Shown here piece by piece: positions 3,609 to 59,470 of a DNA stretch of 64,000 nt (position 1 is the first letter of the stretch; every line of letters begins with the position of its first letter). The stretch lies in contig NZ_BAJX01000005.1 in assembly GCF_000613925.1 (NCBI RefSeq), forward strand, positions 124,001-188,000, written 5' to 3'. The position numbers and the translations under genes are program-made. The notes under the pieces are model-generated. The model did not search any database. It worked only from the letters and a program-made list of their open reading frames with translations, and was not told the origin of the DNA. Origin of the DNA: Prevotella histicola JCM 15637 = DNF00424. GTDB lineage: Bacteria > Bacteroidota > Bacteroidia > Bacteroidales > Bacteroidaceae.

Positions 3609-3721
3609 TGCATATATACATACGCAACCTGCGGAGCAGTCCTATAGAGAAAGGGAAGCAATTCTTTGATAAGCATGCAAGACATAGACGGCTTCTTTGT
3701 AAAATAATTTAGCCTATGACA

Positions 3722-3975
3722 TTTTAATAGGGCATCTTTTGGCTTCTAAAAGATGCCCTTTTGCATTGTAAAAGGTGCCCTTTTAGCATGTAAAAGACGC
3801 CCTTTTACAACCTAAAAGACACCCTTTTACAAGGCCTCATGTAACTATCTGATAATGCAGTGGTTACAAAGTCGAGAAAAGACCATTTCCTGTTATTTTA
3901 TTCTTCTTTGTGTTTTCCAAACTGTAAGTTTACTTTACTCCAGTAAACTTACACCCTCCTACTCTCTTCCTCACC
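3722..3975. repeat. Array A: family-1 22-bp palindromic element with head and tail
   Basis: The head TTTAATAG is followed by GGGCATCTTTT...AAAAGATGCCC and then four further units of 22 bp, core AAAAG-N5-CTTTT (cores ATGCC, GTGCC, ACGCC, ACACC), to about 3830. A tail follows: GCCTC, then GTAACTATCTGATAATG, GGTTACAAAG, and AAACTGTAAG at about 3920. The same head, array and tail recur at 16861 and 35128, and inverted at 29767. It sits between convergent genes. No ORF or transposase is inside. Confidence 0.8.
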
Positions 3976-10300: not shown

Positions 10301-10404
10301 ATTACAGAAAATTACAAAGGCCTTGTAGAAGTATTACAGACGGCTTGTAGAAAGATTACAAGCGGCTTGTAAAAAGATTACAGACGCCTTGTAATTTTCT
10401 GTAA
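10301..10404. repeat. Family-2 element, copy 1 (22-bp units inside 16-bp terminal inverted repeats)
   Basis: Four stem-loop units of the form TTACA-N6-TGTAA/G start every 22 bases. The block begins with TTACAGAAAATTACAA (10302-10317) and ends with its exact reverse complement (10389-10404). A second copy in the opposite orientation lies at 20921-21025. Similarity continues on the right for about 45-80 bases (GGCGCAC...ATCGCTCTTCTA-like sequence). No ORF lies inside. Confidence 0.75.
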
Positions 10405-10635
10405 CGGCGCACCTGGAGATGTCTGCGTCGCTCTTCTAACAGTAAGCTAAACGTTAATTGCCAAGCATAGATAAACCTTAAACGAATGAATTGCGTATGG
10501 GGAGTTCAGCCTTAAGCCATACATATAAAAAGATTTATCGGACACCAATACATCAAAATATAACTGAAAGTAATTGGCAACATGGTTGGGAACAACTTCA
10601 TTCACCAACTAAAGACATACAAAACATCACAAAAA

Positions 10636-16777: not shown

Positions 16778-16860
16778 AAGTTCTGCTTAAATAATGTATT
16801 TATTACATGAGTTTGGAATGAAATATTCCCTCCCTCTATAAAATTTTTTCCTATTTGTTT

Positions 16861-17115
16861 TTTAATAGGTCATCTTTTGCCTTCTAAAAGATGACCTTTT
16901 GCACTGTAAAAAGTGCCCTTTTGCAGTGTAAAAGACGCCCTTTTACATGGTAAAACATGCCCTTTTACAAGCCTGTTTATAACCATCTGAAATTAAGAAC
17001 ATTACAAAGGGTGAAAAAGATGACAATTGTCTATTTCACTTTTTATCACAGCTTCCAAACTGTAAGCATCTTTTACTACTGGTAATATTCACCCTTCTGC
17101 CTTATCACTTCACCT
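16861..17115. repeat. Array C: family-1 22-bp palindromic element with head and tail
   Basis: The head TTTAATAG and GGTCATCTTTT pair with AAAAGATGACC, and further 22-bp units follow to about 16970 (cores GTGCC, ACGCC, ATGCC). The tail has TTATAACCATCTGA, ATTACAAAG and CCAAACTGTAAG at about 17050, then CACCCTTCTGCC. Compared with array A, the head and first unit changed together (GGGCATC/GATGCCC against GGTCATC/GATGACC), which keeps the pairing. Confidence 0.8.
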
Positions 17116-20530: not shown

Positions 20531-20674
20531 TCTAAAAAATTAATAATTTTACTACTAAAAAACGTTTTCTATTTTACGACCATGTGTTTACCTAACCATG
20601 CCGCCCGGCCAAAGACAACACTATTAACATGAATCGTATGGGGCTCTAAGATTACCCCTATAATAATCGGACTG

Positions 20675-20682: not shown

Positions 20683-20920
20683 GTCATTTCCAACCTTATA
20701 TATAAGAATGGCAATCATCGTTATAAATAATTTATATATATTTAACAATATCAGCCTAAATACAGAAGATTAGACATTGCTGTACACTAAACTTTTTCTA
20801 AAGAAATGGCTTAAGACTGAACTTATCATATATTATTCAATTGCTTGAGTCTTATCTTTATTTAGCTATCAACGCTTAACTTACTACTAGAAGAGCGATG
20901 CAAACATCCCATAGTGCGCC

Positions 20921-21025
20921 ATTACAGAAAATTACAAGGCGTCTGTAATCTTTTTACAAGCCGCTTGTAATACTTCTACAAGGCGTCTGTAATACTTCTA
21001 CAAGGCCTTTGTAGTTTTCTGTAAT
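20921..21025. repeat. Family-2 element, copy 2 (inverted relative to copy 1)
   Basis: Its reverse complement matches copy 1 at 10301 nearly base for base, with a 105-bp body against 104. The ends ATTACAGAAAATTACAA and TGTAGTTTTCTGTAAT are near-perfect inverted repeats (one mismatch). The flank at 20865-20920 also matches the right flank of copy 1. Confidence 0.75.
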
Positions 21026-21388
21026 ACCCTATAAGCACACGCGAAAGCAATAGTACAGGCATGAAAAAGCACATCATTTGACGACACAGGAAGAATGAAC
21101 TTACGGGTAATTATGTAAAGTTCCCATCCCCAAAAGCAGACATAGACGAATTAAAACGATGAAGAAGTTTAGCAGATAACCATAAAACAAAAGGCGACGA
21201 AAAGCAGAAACAAGACAAGAAATAGTATAAAACAAAGGACAGAATACACCCACCGACAGTCTCTTTTCATCCCTTTACGAAAACTAACCTTTATTATAGG
21301 AATACAAAGGTAAAGTTATTAAAAACTTAAAAAGAAGACGTTGAAGCCAAAAAAGATAAAAAAAATAAAGGCTTATAGAACTTTTAAT

Positions 21389-25369: not shown

Positions 25370-25692
25370 ACAAGAGGAGGTTCCGCTGCAACAGGAACAG
25401 CAAACAGAGACGTTAAGAAAGTTCTTTACTAAATTACTTCGTCTAAAAATTTATTCCAGGGAAAAACCTTTTATTTTGCTCTTCATAATATTATGACTGT
25501 CAAGACATTACAAAGTGGCTTGTAAAAGACGCCCTTTTGCATTGTAAAAGGGCGTCTTTTACACATCAAAAGGGCATCTTTTAAACAGCAAAAGGTGCCC
25601 TTTTACAATGCAAAAGGGCACCTTTCATTTTTCAATAGTGAAGTTATTTTACATTCCGAGCTCAACACTTGAGATCAGAATGGTACGGATTG
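25370..25692. other. Intergenic stretch between the convergent sensor and TlpA-like genes
   Basis: Apart from array E nothing was recognised. No separate intrinsic terminator is visible for either gene, so the array hairpins could do that job for both. Confidence 0.5.
25507..25630. repeat. Array E: family-1 array with a family-2 unit at its left end
   Basis: It opens with a family-2-type unit ATTACAAAGTGGCTTGTAAA (25507-25526), which runs straight into five 22-bp family-1 units: cores ACGCC, GGCGT, GGCAT, GTGCC, GGCAC. Unit 1 and unit 2 are mutual inverses, so GTAAAAGACGCCCTTTT can pair with the next unit as a long hairpin. Confidence 0.75.
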
Positions 25693-26918: not shown

Positions 26919-27105
26919 GCAAAAGAGTATCAAATATTGTCAATAGCGTTTCTCACAACACGCTACTATAACTGCTATTTTGTTACGTTCCGACCTATCA
27001 AAGAGCATCTTTTGCATGCTTTTCATGCACACTTATAACAATTAAAAGCATAGGGTTAGGAAAAGAGGCAACGCACTTGAATGACTCAAAATATATTCTT
27101 ATTTA

Positions 27106-29574: not shown

Positions 29575-29724
29575 GCTCTTTTTGAAATAGCGAGATGCCG
29601 TACCTAAAAACAGGGTTGTCAGTCAAAGAGAGGATGAAAGGATAGATATTAGAAACATGAAAATATACTTACAATATTAGAAGTATACGCGAACCAAAAA
29701 CAGAAGGAATTCTTCTTTTTTCAG

Positions 29725-29885
29725 CTTTGTAACCTAAACATTATCAAACAGTTATGAAGAGGCTCGCAAAAGGGCATCTTTTACAGTGCAAAAGGGCGTC
29801 TTTTACATGTCAAAAGGTGCCCTTTTACATTGCAAAAGGGCACCTTTTAGAAGGCAAAAGATGACCTATTAGAAAACAATAGGTA
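29725..29885. repeat. Array F: family-1 element in inverted orientation
   Basis: Read on the minus strand it shows the usual order: head CTAATAGGTCATCTTTTGCC, then 22-bp units (29767-29873), then the tail with GCCTC, TAACTGTTTGATAATG and GGTTACAAAG (29727-29764). This tail matches array A in the other orientation at most positions. Confidence 0.8.
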
Positions 29886-30027
29886 ATTAGTTTTTACAAG
29901 AGAGGCGTCTAAGCCTCCCACAACAGCACAAACATTGCATCTCTTTATTATGTATTTTATTCCCCGATAACATAAACCTCGCACACGAAACGAACTGTTA
30001 ATAATACTGAAAAACTTACATATTTAC

Positions 30028-34947: not shown

Positions 34948-35127
34948 CTGTTTTATCCATCATCCTGTAACGGGGCAAGTGTACTCCTTACGCCTGTTTC
35001 CTACTAACCATTCTTTCATATTCGTACAGCCTCTGCAGGCACGGTAGCCATTGTTTGATGAATAGCAGGAAATATCTTAAAACACAACTTACACCTCCCT
35101 TTTGTAAGGATTATTCTTACTCACAAT

Positions 35128-35395
35128 TTAATAGATGCTCTTTTGCCTTCTAAAAGACGCCCTTTTACATGGTAAAAGATGCCCTTTTGATGTGTAAAAG
35201 GTGCCCTTTTACAACGCAAAAGGGCACCTTTTTAAACACCTCCTGTAACCTATTGGTTTTCAAAACGATACAGAAGCCGTTTTTTAGCACATTAACTGAT
35301 TTTACAAAGAGACCACTTCTCAAAACTGTAAATAATCTTTCCTCTTAGCTTTTCCCATATTCTACTCCTTCTACCTGGTCCTTTTTCTTTCCCGA
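35128..35395. repeat. Array G: family-1 22-bp palindromic element with head and tail
   Basis: The head TTTAATAGATGCTCTTTTGCC is followed by 22-bp units (cores ACGCC, ATGCC, GTGCC, GGCAC) to about 35234. The tail CACCTCCTGTAACCTATTGG, ATTTTACAAAGAG, AAAACTGTAAATAATCTTT and TACTCCTTCTACC parallels arrays A and C. Confidence 0.75.
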
Positions 35396-41693: not shown

Positions 41694-41975
41694 TTAATCA
41701 CAGATATTTCTTAAAAAAAATATTTTATCGCCACGAAAACAAGGATACAATAAGCTTTATAAGCGTATTTCGTACAATATATAATAATCAATTGATTCTT
41801 TCTATTAATAAAAAAGAAAGCTCTACAGAACCCTCTTACCATGGAATATCGGTATTCTTTCCTTACAAAACAGAACTGTATGAGATGCAAAAAGGCTATT
41901 ATAACTCACAGATAGAGAATAGATACAGAGACGGGGAATGCTTATAATGTAATAAAAAATCAGCATGTGCAAAAC

Positions 41976-42155
41976 AATAGATGCTCTTTTGCAATGTAAA
42001 AGAGCATCTTTTGCAATGTAAAAGAGCATCTTTTGCAATGTAAAAGGGCATCTTTTGACGTGTAAAAGGTGCCCTTTTGAAGTGTAAAAGGGCGTCTTTT
42101 ACTTTGCCCATCATAACATATTGGATATCTGAATGTTACAAATGGAGAAATAGAG
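41976..42155. repeat. Array H: family-1 element with near-identical units
   Basis: AATAGATGCTCTTTTGCAATG is followed by two identical 22-bp units AAAAGAGCATCTTTTGCAATGT, then three that differ (cores GGCAT, GTGCC, GGCGT), to about 42102. The tail has CATAACATATTGG and ATATCTGAATGTTACAAAT. Two frames that cross the array are chance products. Confidence 0.8.
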
Positions 42156-42313
42156 TCTTATCTTTAAAAACACGACACCAAGCAAAGAGCAATATTGTAA
42201 ATGATTTTTCAATCTAAGGAAAACAGTCTGGTAATATGTTAGTAGGTCTTAAATATAAGGGATATCTCAATGAATTAACGTACCTTTGTGGGAGAATAAT
42301 AAAGAAGAAAAGA

Positions 42314-46795: not shown

Positions 46796-46940
46796 TTCCT
46801 ATAGGATTCGCTTCCGTTTCCTATAGGATTTGTTTTTGTTTTACCCGTACTATTTCCTATTATCACGCTTAGATAATTAATTATCACGCTTAGATAATAC
46901 TTTATCAAACTTAGATAATACTTTATCACGCTTAGGTAAT
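46796..46940. repeat. Family-3 repeats (21-bp stem-loop units)
   Basis: Four units TTATCACGCTTAGATAAT or near variants start every 21 bases (46860-46940). Each is a TTATC/GATAA hairpin with a 7-base loop. Before them are two copies of the palindrome TCCTATAGGA (46798-46807, 46819-46828). Confidence 0.75.
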
Positions 46941-47129
46941 TAAATAAGAAGCATAGAAAACCATTCTAAAGCACGCACTTCACAAACATAAAACACATAC
47001 AAAAGAGATACAAAAGCAGAGTATCTGCAGTGTGAAGCATGAGCAATACTATCTTAAACAATATTAGAACGCTATTCAAACAACATAAAAAAAGAAACAG
47101 AAGGAAGAGTATAAGGAAAGTTTTATGTA

Positions 47130-59034: not shown

Positions 59035-59190
59035 TCATCAAATACACTATTTAATCTTTTTTAAACATATGGTAGCAGAGGCAGAAGAGAGAGGTTGGAA
59101 GGTGAATAACGCACCAATAGTAGCAGCCTGACTAATAGAGAATTACCCATATACGCACCTTTATTGTAAAGACTATTCATAACTGCAAAA

Positions 59191-59345
59191 TAAAAGGTGC
59201 TCTTTTGCAATGTAAAAGATGCCCTTTTGCATGGTAAAAGGTGCCCTTTTGATGTGTAAAAGACGCCCTTTTGCAATGTAAAAGGGCGTCTTTTACAACA
59301 CGATTTGTAAACTCTTGATTATCTGAACGTTACAAATCCAAAAAT
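59191..59345. repeat. Array I: family-1 22-bp palindromic element
   Basis: Five 22-bp units run from 59191 to about 59296 (cores GTGCT, ATGCC, GTGCC, ACGCC, then inverted GGCGT). The tail at 59297-59345 reads GATTTGTAAACTC, ATTATCTGAACGTTACAAAT, very near the tail of array H. The last unit pairs with the one before it as a long hairpin. Confidence 0.8.
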
Positions 59346-59470
59346 AATCGGTTTAGAGTTGCATTTCATGTTATTGGCTATTTTAATTTGTAAAGTAATA
59401 TTCTACCACGGAATCTCTGCTTTTTTGAGGCGGTATATACGCCTTTCGGGGATATTACATGCCTAAAAAA

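Follow-up and report, generated by a model that had tools for sequence, protein, structure and literature searches.

A dispersed intergenic element of Prevotella with a core of five palindromes at a 22-bp pitch

BOX elements of Streptococcus pneumoniae are modular, with end boxes around a repeated middle box whose copy number varies. The element that we describe here from a Prevotella genome shares this modular design, and it differs from BOX, by description rather than by sequence, in the varying number of the BOX middle unit. The BrickBuilt MITE of Porphyromonas gingivalis has 19 copies with 1 to 22.8 units of 23 nt, and carries terminal inverted repeats like GAGACCTTTGCA that are common to IS5 elements (PMC4596501). 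BrickBuilt resembles the Prevotella element in being a dispersed, intergenic element of the Bacteroidales with tandem units between a leader and a tail and predicted long stem-loops (PMC4596501), whereas the Prevotella element has mostly five palindromic 22-bp units, terminal direct repeats and ~190 copies, and has neither the BrickBuilt-type terminal inverted repeats nor a widely varying number of 23-nt repeats. The REP, BIME and REPIN sequences associated with RAYT are likewise short palindromes in many intergenic copies, sometimes paired (see PMC3733652). In contrast to these, the Prevotella units stand in a fixed five-unit frame with ends of its own, in a genome where no Y1 transposase was found: a search for Y1_Tnp (PF01797) gave no match in this genome (a 95% complete draft) or in the genomes G170, G156, G372, G422 and G423, and matched 5 of the 15 genomes searched, including the array-bearing G010 (P. 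bivia), G077 and G247. The consensus, read by eye, has no constant GTAG/CGTC foot of the kind that flanks a 20-40 bp palindrome in REP sequences, and CGTC occurs inside units with a GGCGT centre. BrickBuilt and the REP-type sequences are relatives by design, and the decisive features of theirs that we tested for were not found in the Prevotella element. In a search of open-licence papers, including passages of PMC4349605 and PMC5771137, we recognised no description of this element.

Architecture of the element and copying of whole elements

The window (the whole stretch of 64,000 nucleotides that was analysed) contains 28 exact matches to AAAAG-N5-CTTTT, where 100 dinucleotide shuffles average 0.25, and the whole genome (2.95 Mb in 55 contigs) contains 457 exact two-unit matches per strand reading, with none for a reversed control pattern. 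All seven arrays that an earlier note on this DNA had claimed in the window are present, and its figure of about five units per array agrees with the unit counts, which are five in six of the arrays and six in the array at 41976. Element 1 spans 3697-3937 on the forward strand, with its left end at 3697 and five units at 3726-3828, followed by the right block and a right direct repeat that ends at ~3937. Element 2 (16836-17075, forward strand; five units at 16864-16966) lies in the spacer between the FAA-hydrolase and EF-Ts genes, and both of its ends are degenerate and approximate. Elements 3 and 4 are on the reverse strand, the former (25416-25654; five units at 25524-25626) in a convergent spacer and with a poorly conserved right end, the latter (29659-29898; five units at 29768-29870) with approximate ends. 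The remaining three are on the forward strand: element 5 (35103-35342; five units at 35130-35232; approximate ends) in a convergent spacer, element 6 (41942-42210; six units at 41976-42100) in a divergent spacer and with an approximate left end at 41942-41948, and element 7 (59165-59403; five units at 59192-59294), again with approximate ends. The earlier array coordinates were correct for these cores but fell short of the elements, which extend ~28 bp on one side and ~109 bp on the other. What had been called a single decayed unit, CAAAGAGCATCTTTT (26999-27013, forward strand), is indeed a unit with one mismatch; no recognised element frame surrounds it, and its decay from an array has no support.

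We counted arrays in a sample of 822,499 bp, 28% of the genome, and obtained 61, of which 47 have five units, 6 have six, 4 have four, 3 have three and 1 has seven. Some of the six- and seven-unit calls contain a spurious unit with three mismatches (e.g. at 16841, 25634 and 41954). The arrays C33:1734, C55:126467 and C54:90960, also among the 61, appear unrelated on inspection. Extrapolation from the sample gives an estimated ~193 arrays genome-wide (57 x 457/135), and 57 of the 58 placed elements lie between genes by crude gene calls (ORFs of at least 100 aa). Of the 200 neighbouring unit pairs whose starts are 20-23 bp apart, 197 show a step of exactly 22 bp, and five further unit pairs are spaced 42-51 bp.

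The 22-bp array is the core of a dispersed non-coding element of ~240 bp. The element opens with the left end TTGTAAAATAATTCA; next come the five AAAAG-N5-CTTTT units, spaced at 22 bp, then a TTGTAAC...GTTACAAA block, and the right end TTGTAAGATTATTTC closes it. In a consensus alignment of 47 of the 60 copies from the sample (in the other 13 the block is off its standard place or a flank is missing), conservation begins on the left with TTGTAAaa..aATTcac, ~28 bp ahead of unit 1; the units are followed by the block, TTTgTAACct.TTGATaaTctgtagGTTACAAAg, and by a weakly conserved AT-rich stretch, and conservation terminates at TTGTAAg.tTATTTc. Terminal inverted repeats are absent, and the two ends are direct repeats. 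The units are position-specific: unit 1 shows the lowest regularity, and units 3 and 4 are joined by a linker with the consensus Ga.gTGT.

At two unrelated loci, C51:99181 and C55:122039, an ungapped match with 213 of 240 bases identical begins at one terminal repeat and stops at the other. Because this match ends at both terminal repeats, the earlier proposal that whole elements were copied, instead of units being amplified singly, is well supported, and it is further borne out by the conserved ends, the position-specific linkers, the copy number of ~190 and the distance from left end to block, which is 143-144 bp in 43 of the 49 sampled copies with clear ends (11 of the 60 elements, without recognisable ends, were left out of this count). 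We take the copied unit to be the ~240 bp bounded by the two terminal repeats, rather than the array itself as the earlier note had it. The six off-length copies measure 100 bp (three units), 121 bp (four units), 164 bp, 165 bp, 166 bp (six units) and 215 bp; the 165-bp case (window 16864) has five units by count, its left end probably being miscalled, and the left end of the 215-bp case is probably false. A minisatellite made by slippage is unlikely for this genome, given the one length shared by these 43 copies. Direct repeats of 4, 6, 8 and 10 bp flanking the 47 elements were not above shuffled partners, and old copies would have lost them. The MITE-like traits present are the size, the non-coding sequence, the estimated number of copies and the clean copying of a whole unit.

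Conservation of the arms and number of units

For the comparison of the arms with the rest of the element, sites were chosen by right block and left end, not by the arms, which retained 38 of 48 sites and dropped the 10 right-block sites without a left end. At the 38 sites, the arms of units 2-5 match at 0.96-0.99 and those of unit 1 at 0.83, and the major base at the central five positions reaches 0.57-0.65. At least three of the five units are in place at 41 of the 48 block sites, and the one inspected among the seven sites short of units proved to be a block read on the wrong strand. Between nearest-neighbour copies (n = 47, from the 28% sample, with closer sisters possibly lying in the other 72% of the genome), 34% of the non-arm bases differ versus 2.9% of the bases in the arms of units 2-5, an arm divergence ~twelve times lower than that of the rest of the element. 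Non-arm identity over all pairs is 0.51 versus 0.28 outside the element, and identities above 0.85 outside the arms are limited to two pairs (4 of the 47 copies), of which one is a local duplication. Since even the nearest copies differ so much at their non-arm bases, most of the sampled copies are old; with old copies and kept arms, recent copying fails to explain the uniformity. For this genome it is well supported that the arms are conserved far more strongly than the remainder of the element, and we regard selection as the most probable reason. Homogenising exchange would level the central bases, a few bases away, together with the arms, and would therefore not explain the contrast. Other Prevotella also have AAAAG/CTTTT arms at a 22-bp pitch, around central words that differ.

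The unit count is narrow but not five everywhere. A copy number constant at about five, as claimed in the earlier note, holds for 47 of the 61 sampled arrays but not for homologous segments of other genomes: in a segment common to L155, L222 and contig C40 (3.5-5.7 kb) of the window's genome, the array has five units in the latter, four in G393 and three in P. aurantiaca, and the unit number is therefore not mechanically fixed. In P. bivia, 13 of 22 arrays have five units and 9 have four (L047 and L060, the same array in opposite orientation, are both counted), and among 30 loci from a mixed set of other Prevotella 13 have four units, 4 have five, 5 have three and 8 have two (one two-unit locus, L021/L160, is entered twice).

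Two four-unit families in the same genome are unrelated to the five-unit element yet of the same design. The first has TTACA...TTGTA units at a ~22-bp pitch, framed in the window (10306-10407 and 20920-21026) by TTACAGAAAA and TTTTCTGTAA, and numbers exactly four units in 7 of 7 arrays of the 822-kb sample. The other has units of the type TTATCACGCTTAGATAA, whose centres occur in both orientations, a 21-bp pitch (window 46859-46945) and exactly four units in 5 of 5 arrays of the same sample. These fixed counts were taken to speak for the reading of the arrays as selected platforms that we propose below.

Distribution in the genus and stability of element sites

Judged by EF-Ts identity (96% to P. 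multiformis and 95% to P. jejuni, with the records nearest the window possibly omitted), the window's genome is a Prevotella near these two species. Among 398 genomes of the genus, themselves part of a larger group, 30 contain the strict two-unit pattern; the window's genome tops the counts by far, followed by genomes with 69, 49, 48 and 32 matches, and one of the 30, G368, hits the control pattern equally often. The pattern, which can miss diverged versions such as that of P. multiformis, was absent from all 136 genomes searched in other genera of the family and from all 24 searched in other families of the order. With one element (window 59140-59420) as query, no match on phages or plasmids was found; the strict pattern matched one viral contig.

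Searching with the right block, we found a longer element of 450 to ~590 bp, with the precise right end ATTTAACGGAAGAACC, in P. multiformis and in G170, which we take to be P. melaninogenica ATCC 25845 with its two chromosomes; the longer element was also matched in G156 and G372. First-look candidates number 108-230 per genome, at most 40 of which were scored, and the P. melaninogenica-type element has truncated variants (L228, L230, L233 and L234). The left end lies 143-144 bp from the block in all 12 loci read in G170 (12 of 40 block matches) and 142-144 bp from it in all 20 loci read in P. multiformis. The corresponding distances are 130, 152, 152, 143 and 152 bp at five P. jejuni loci with weak left ends, 152 bp being no whole-unit step, and 98 and 127 bp at two loci of P. 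aurantiaca. In the P. melaninogenica and P. multiformis version, several units lack symmetric arms though the spacing persists, so the arms are dispensable in some lineages.

We compared G170 with G156 and G372, whose main aligned blocks are 92-97% identical, and examined 13 elements. The diverged elements are present at all alignable sites, 9 of 9 in G156 and 8 of 8 in G372 (four of the 13 are uncovered in each genome, and one more in G372 falls within a replaced segment), and no clean empty site was seen among these 17 alignable of 26 element-genome cases. A different element of 200 bp, whose ends resemble AACCCAAATCGGTCATTAGA and look inverted, occurs in G156 (L238 and L239) but not in G170 (L226 and L227); its presence and absence at two sites means that the comparison can detect insertions. 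An array at every orthologous spacer, which the earlier note had named as refuting its proposal, is what we see when the diverged version is followed across three closely related genomes, but the single spacer of the window that was compared differs. This FAA hydrolase/EF-Ts spacer, the site of element 2, has no array in P. multiformis, P. jejuni or P. bivia; in P. aurantiaca, 3.1 kb separate the two genes, and this interval includes a related short array at ~0.3 kb from the FAA gene. From this sequence comparison, a gain of the element in the window's lineage is likely at this one site.

In the P. melaninogenica-type version, the array regions show 6.4% substitutions versus 6.0% in other intergenic DNA, and no constraint is seen in the substitution rate of orthologous elements. 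The same regions have 6 indels versus 16.6 expected (Poisson P 0.003), a result drawn from 13 loci and two comparisons with one genome in common, all six indels falling in one of the two; a smaller array-region set has 1 indel versus 7.4 expected. The array region was chosen for this test after the first result, and the initial impression from gap columns shrank once events were counted. The flanking parts of the element show a similar deficit, and for whole elements in the first 60 kb there is no depletion in one pair (P 1.0) and a nominal one in the other (P 0.04), with 6 + 3 events. We regard the indel depletion as only suggestive of constraint.

A 4.5-kb segment is 93% identical between G156 (L154) and contig C35 (12.6-17.2 kb) of the window's genome and carries an array along, which suggests that this array-bearing segment may have been shared horizontally between the two genomes. 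The loci L154, L155 and L156, which are common to other genomes, contain ordinary-looking genes by eye, with the array in a spacer.

Proposed function and alternative readings

We consider it about an even chance (roughly 0.5) that this is an old copied element whose arrays selection keeps as platforms for a putative dimeric DNA-binding protein. The element would be genus-restricted and non-autonomous, copied whole into an estimated ~190 mostly intergenic Prevotella sites; its core is formed by five 15-bp palindromes with AAAAG/CTTTT half-sites ten bases apart and a pitch of exactly 22 bp. As 22 bp is two helical turns, all five palindromes would face one side of the DNA. Selection at individual copies would keep the arms, the spacing and the number of units and let the centres, linkers and flanks drift, and the array may serve as a cooperative landing platform for a sequence-specific protein. 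That a dimeric protein would read the arms is suggested by half-sites of identical sequence, set ten bases apart, and by a pitch of two helical turns; such a protein may be chromosome-organising, insulating or inherited from the element. Tentatively, the proposal may be extended to ~200 phased five-palindrome platforms, each selected, for a putative chromosome-organising protein, with at least three parallel systems (five sites at 22 bp, four at 22 bp and four at 21 bp) and with words replaced between species.

The main rival is that the array acts as a folded nucleic acid, in which paired units form RNA hairpins or DNA cruciforms that terminate transcription arriving from either side or shield the ends of mRNA. 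We find this doubtful as a general account, and it fits P. bivia better: neighbouring units there are perfect reverse complements in 0.35 of pairs versus 0.23 when shuffled, a complementarity that would favour folding over protein reading in that species, and adjacent units in the mixed set of other Prevotella are perfectly complementary in 0.41 versus 0.13 of cases, under a null that mixes species and with L021/L160 again entered twice. In the window's genome, however, neighbours are not complementary beyond chance (0.22 versus 0.24, mean z -3.5), units 1 and 5 being complementary beyond expectation (z 4.1 and 4.8) and units 3 and 4 less so than expected (z -4.0), and the arms remain AAAAG/CTTTT, which is more than mere complementarity asks for; pairing of neighbours inside these arrays was accordingly set aside. 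By the crude gene calls, the spacers of 57 elements are 24 convergent, 25 tandem and 8 divergent versus 70, 225 and 74 among all 369 spacers, an excess of convergent spacers that suits transcription ends but would also be expected if promoter insertions are lost. The mean predicted RNA folding energy of 47 elements is -72 kcal/mol on the forward strand, a raw value for the native sequences, and RNAalifold, run on 32 copies of the P. melaninogenica type and from P. multiformis, found no supporting covariation. An RNA gene with covarying structure was rejected on this result and on the lack of an Rfam match: at gathering thresholds the arrays of the window are unmatched, the only find being an L13-Bacteroidia ribosomal leader RNA at 20586-20658 (62.6 bits), and seven related loci searched at E up to 0.5 gave three matches, all under gathering scores.

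We considered two further accounts. That the element is a dead MITE-like repeat, copied whole and no longer selected, its uniform number reflecting descent only, agrees with a substitution rate close to that of other intergenic DNA in the P. melaninogenica-type group, with its presence in 17 of 17 alignable cases and with the fewer units in homologous segments of two other genomes; the twelve-fold lower divergence of the arms between nearest copies in the window's genome and, modestly, the deficit of array-region indels make it improbable. We give still less credence to a living sequence population moved by an arm-reading transposase, in which the arms are kept since only intact copies move. 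The clean copy between unrelated loci and the FAA/EF-Ts spacer that lacks an array in three species are what such movement would leave, but closely similar pairs are confined to the two noted above, no Y1 transposase was found in the window's genome, and target duplications are not in excess.

Bacterial tandem repeats usually vary in unit number, and here number, spacing and arms are kept over many loci as the rest drifts, which makes the function directly testable. If the reading of the arrays as selected platforms is true, they would amount to a binding system that spans the chromosome, or else to a dispersed element of a new kind, in a genus common in the human mouth and gut.
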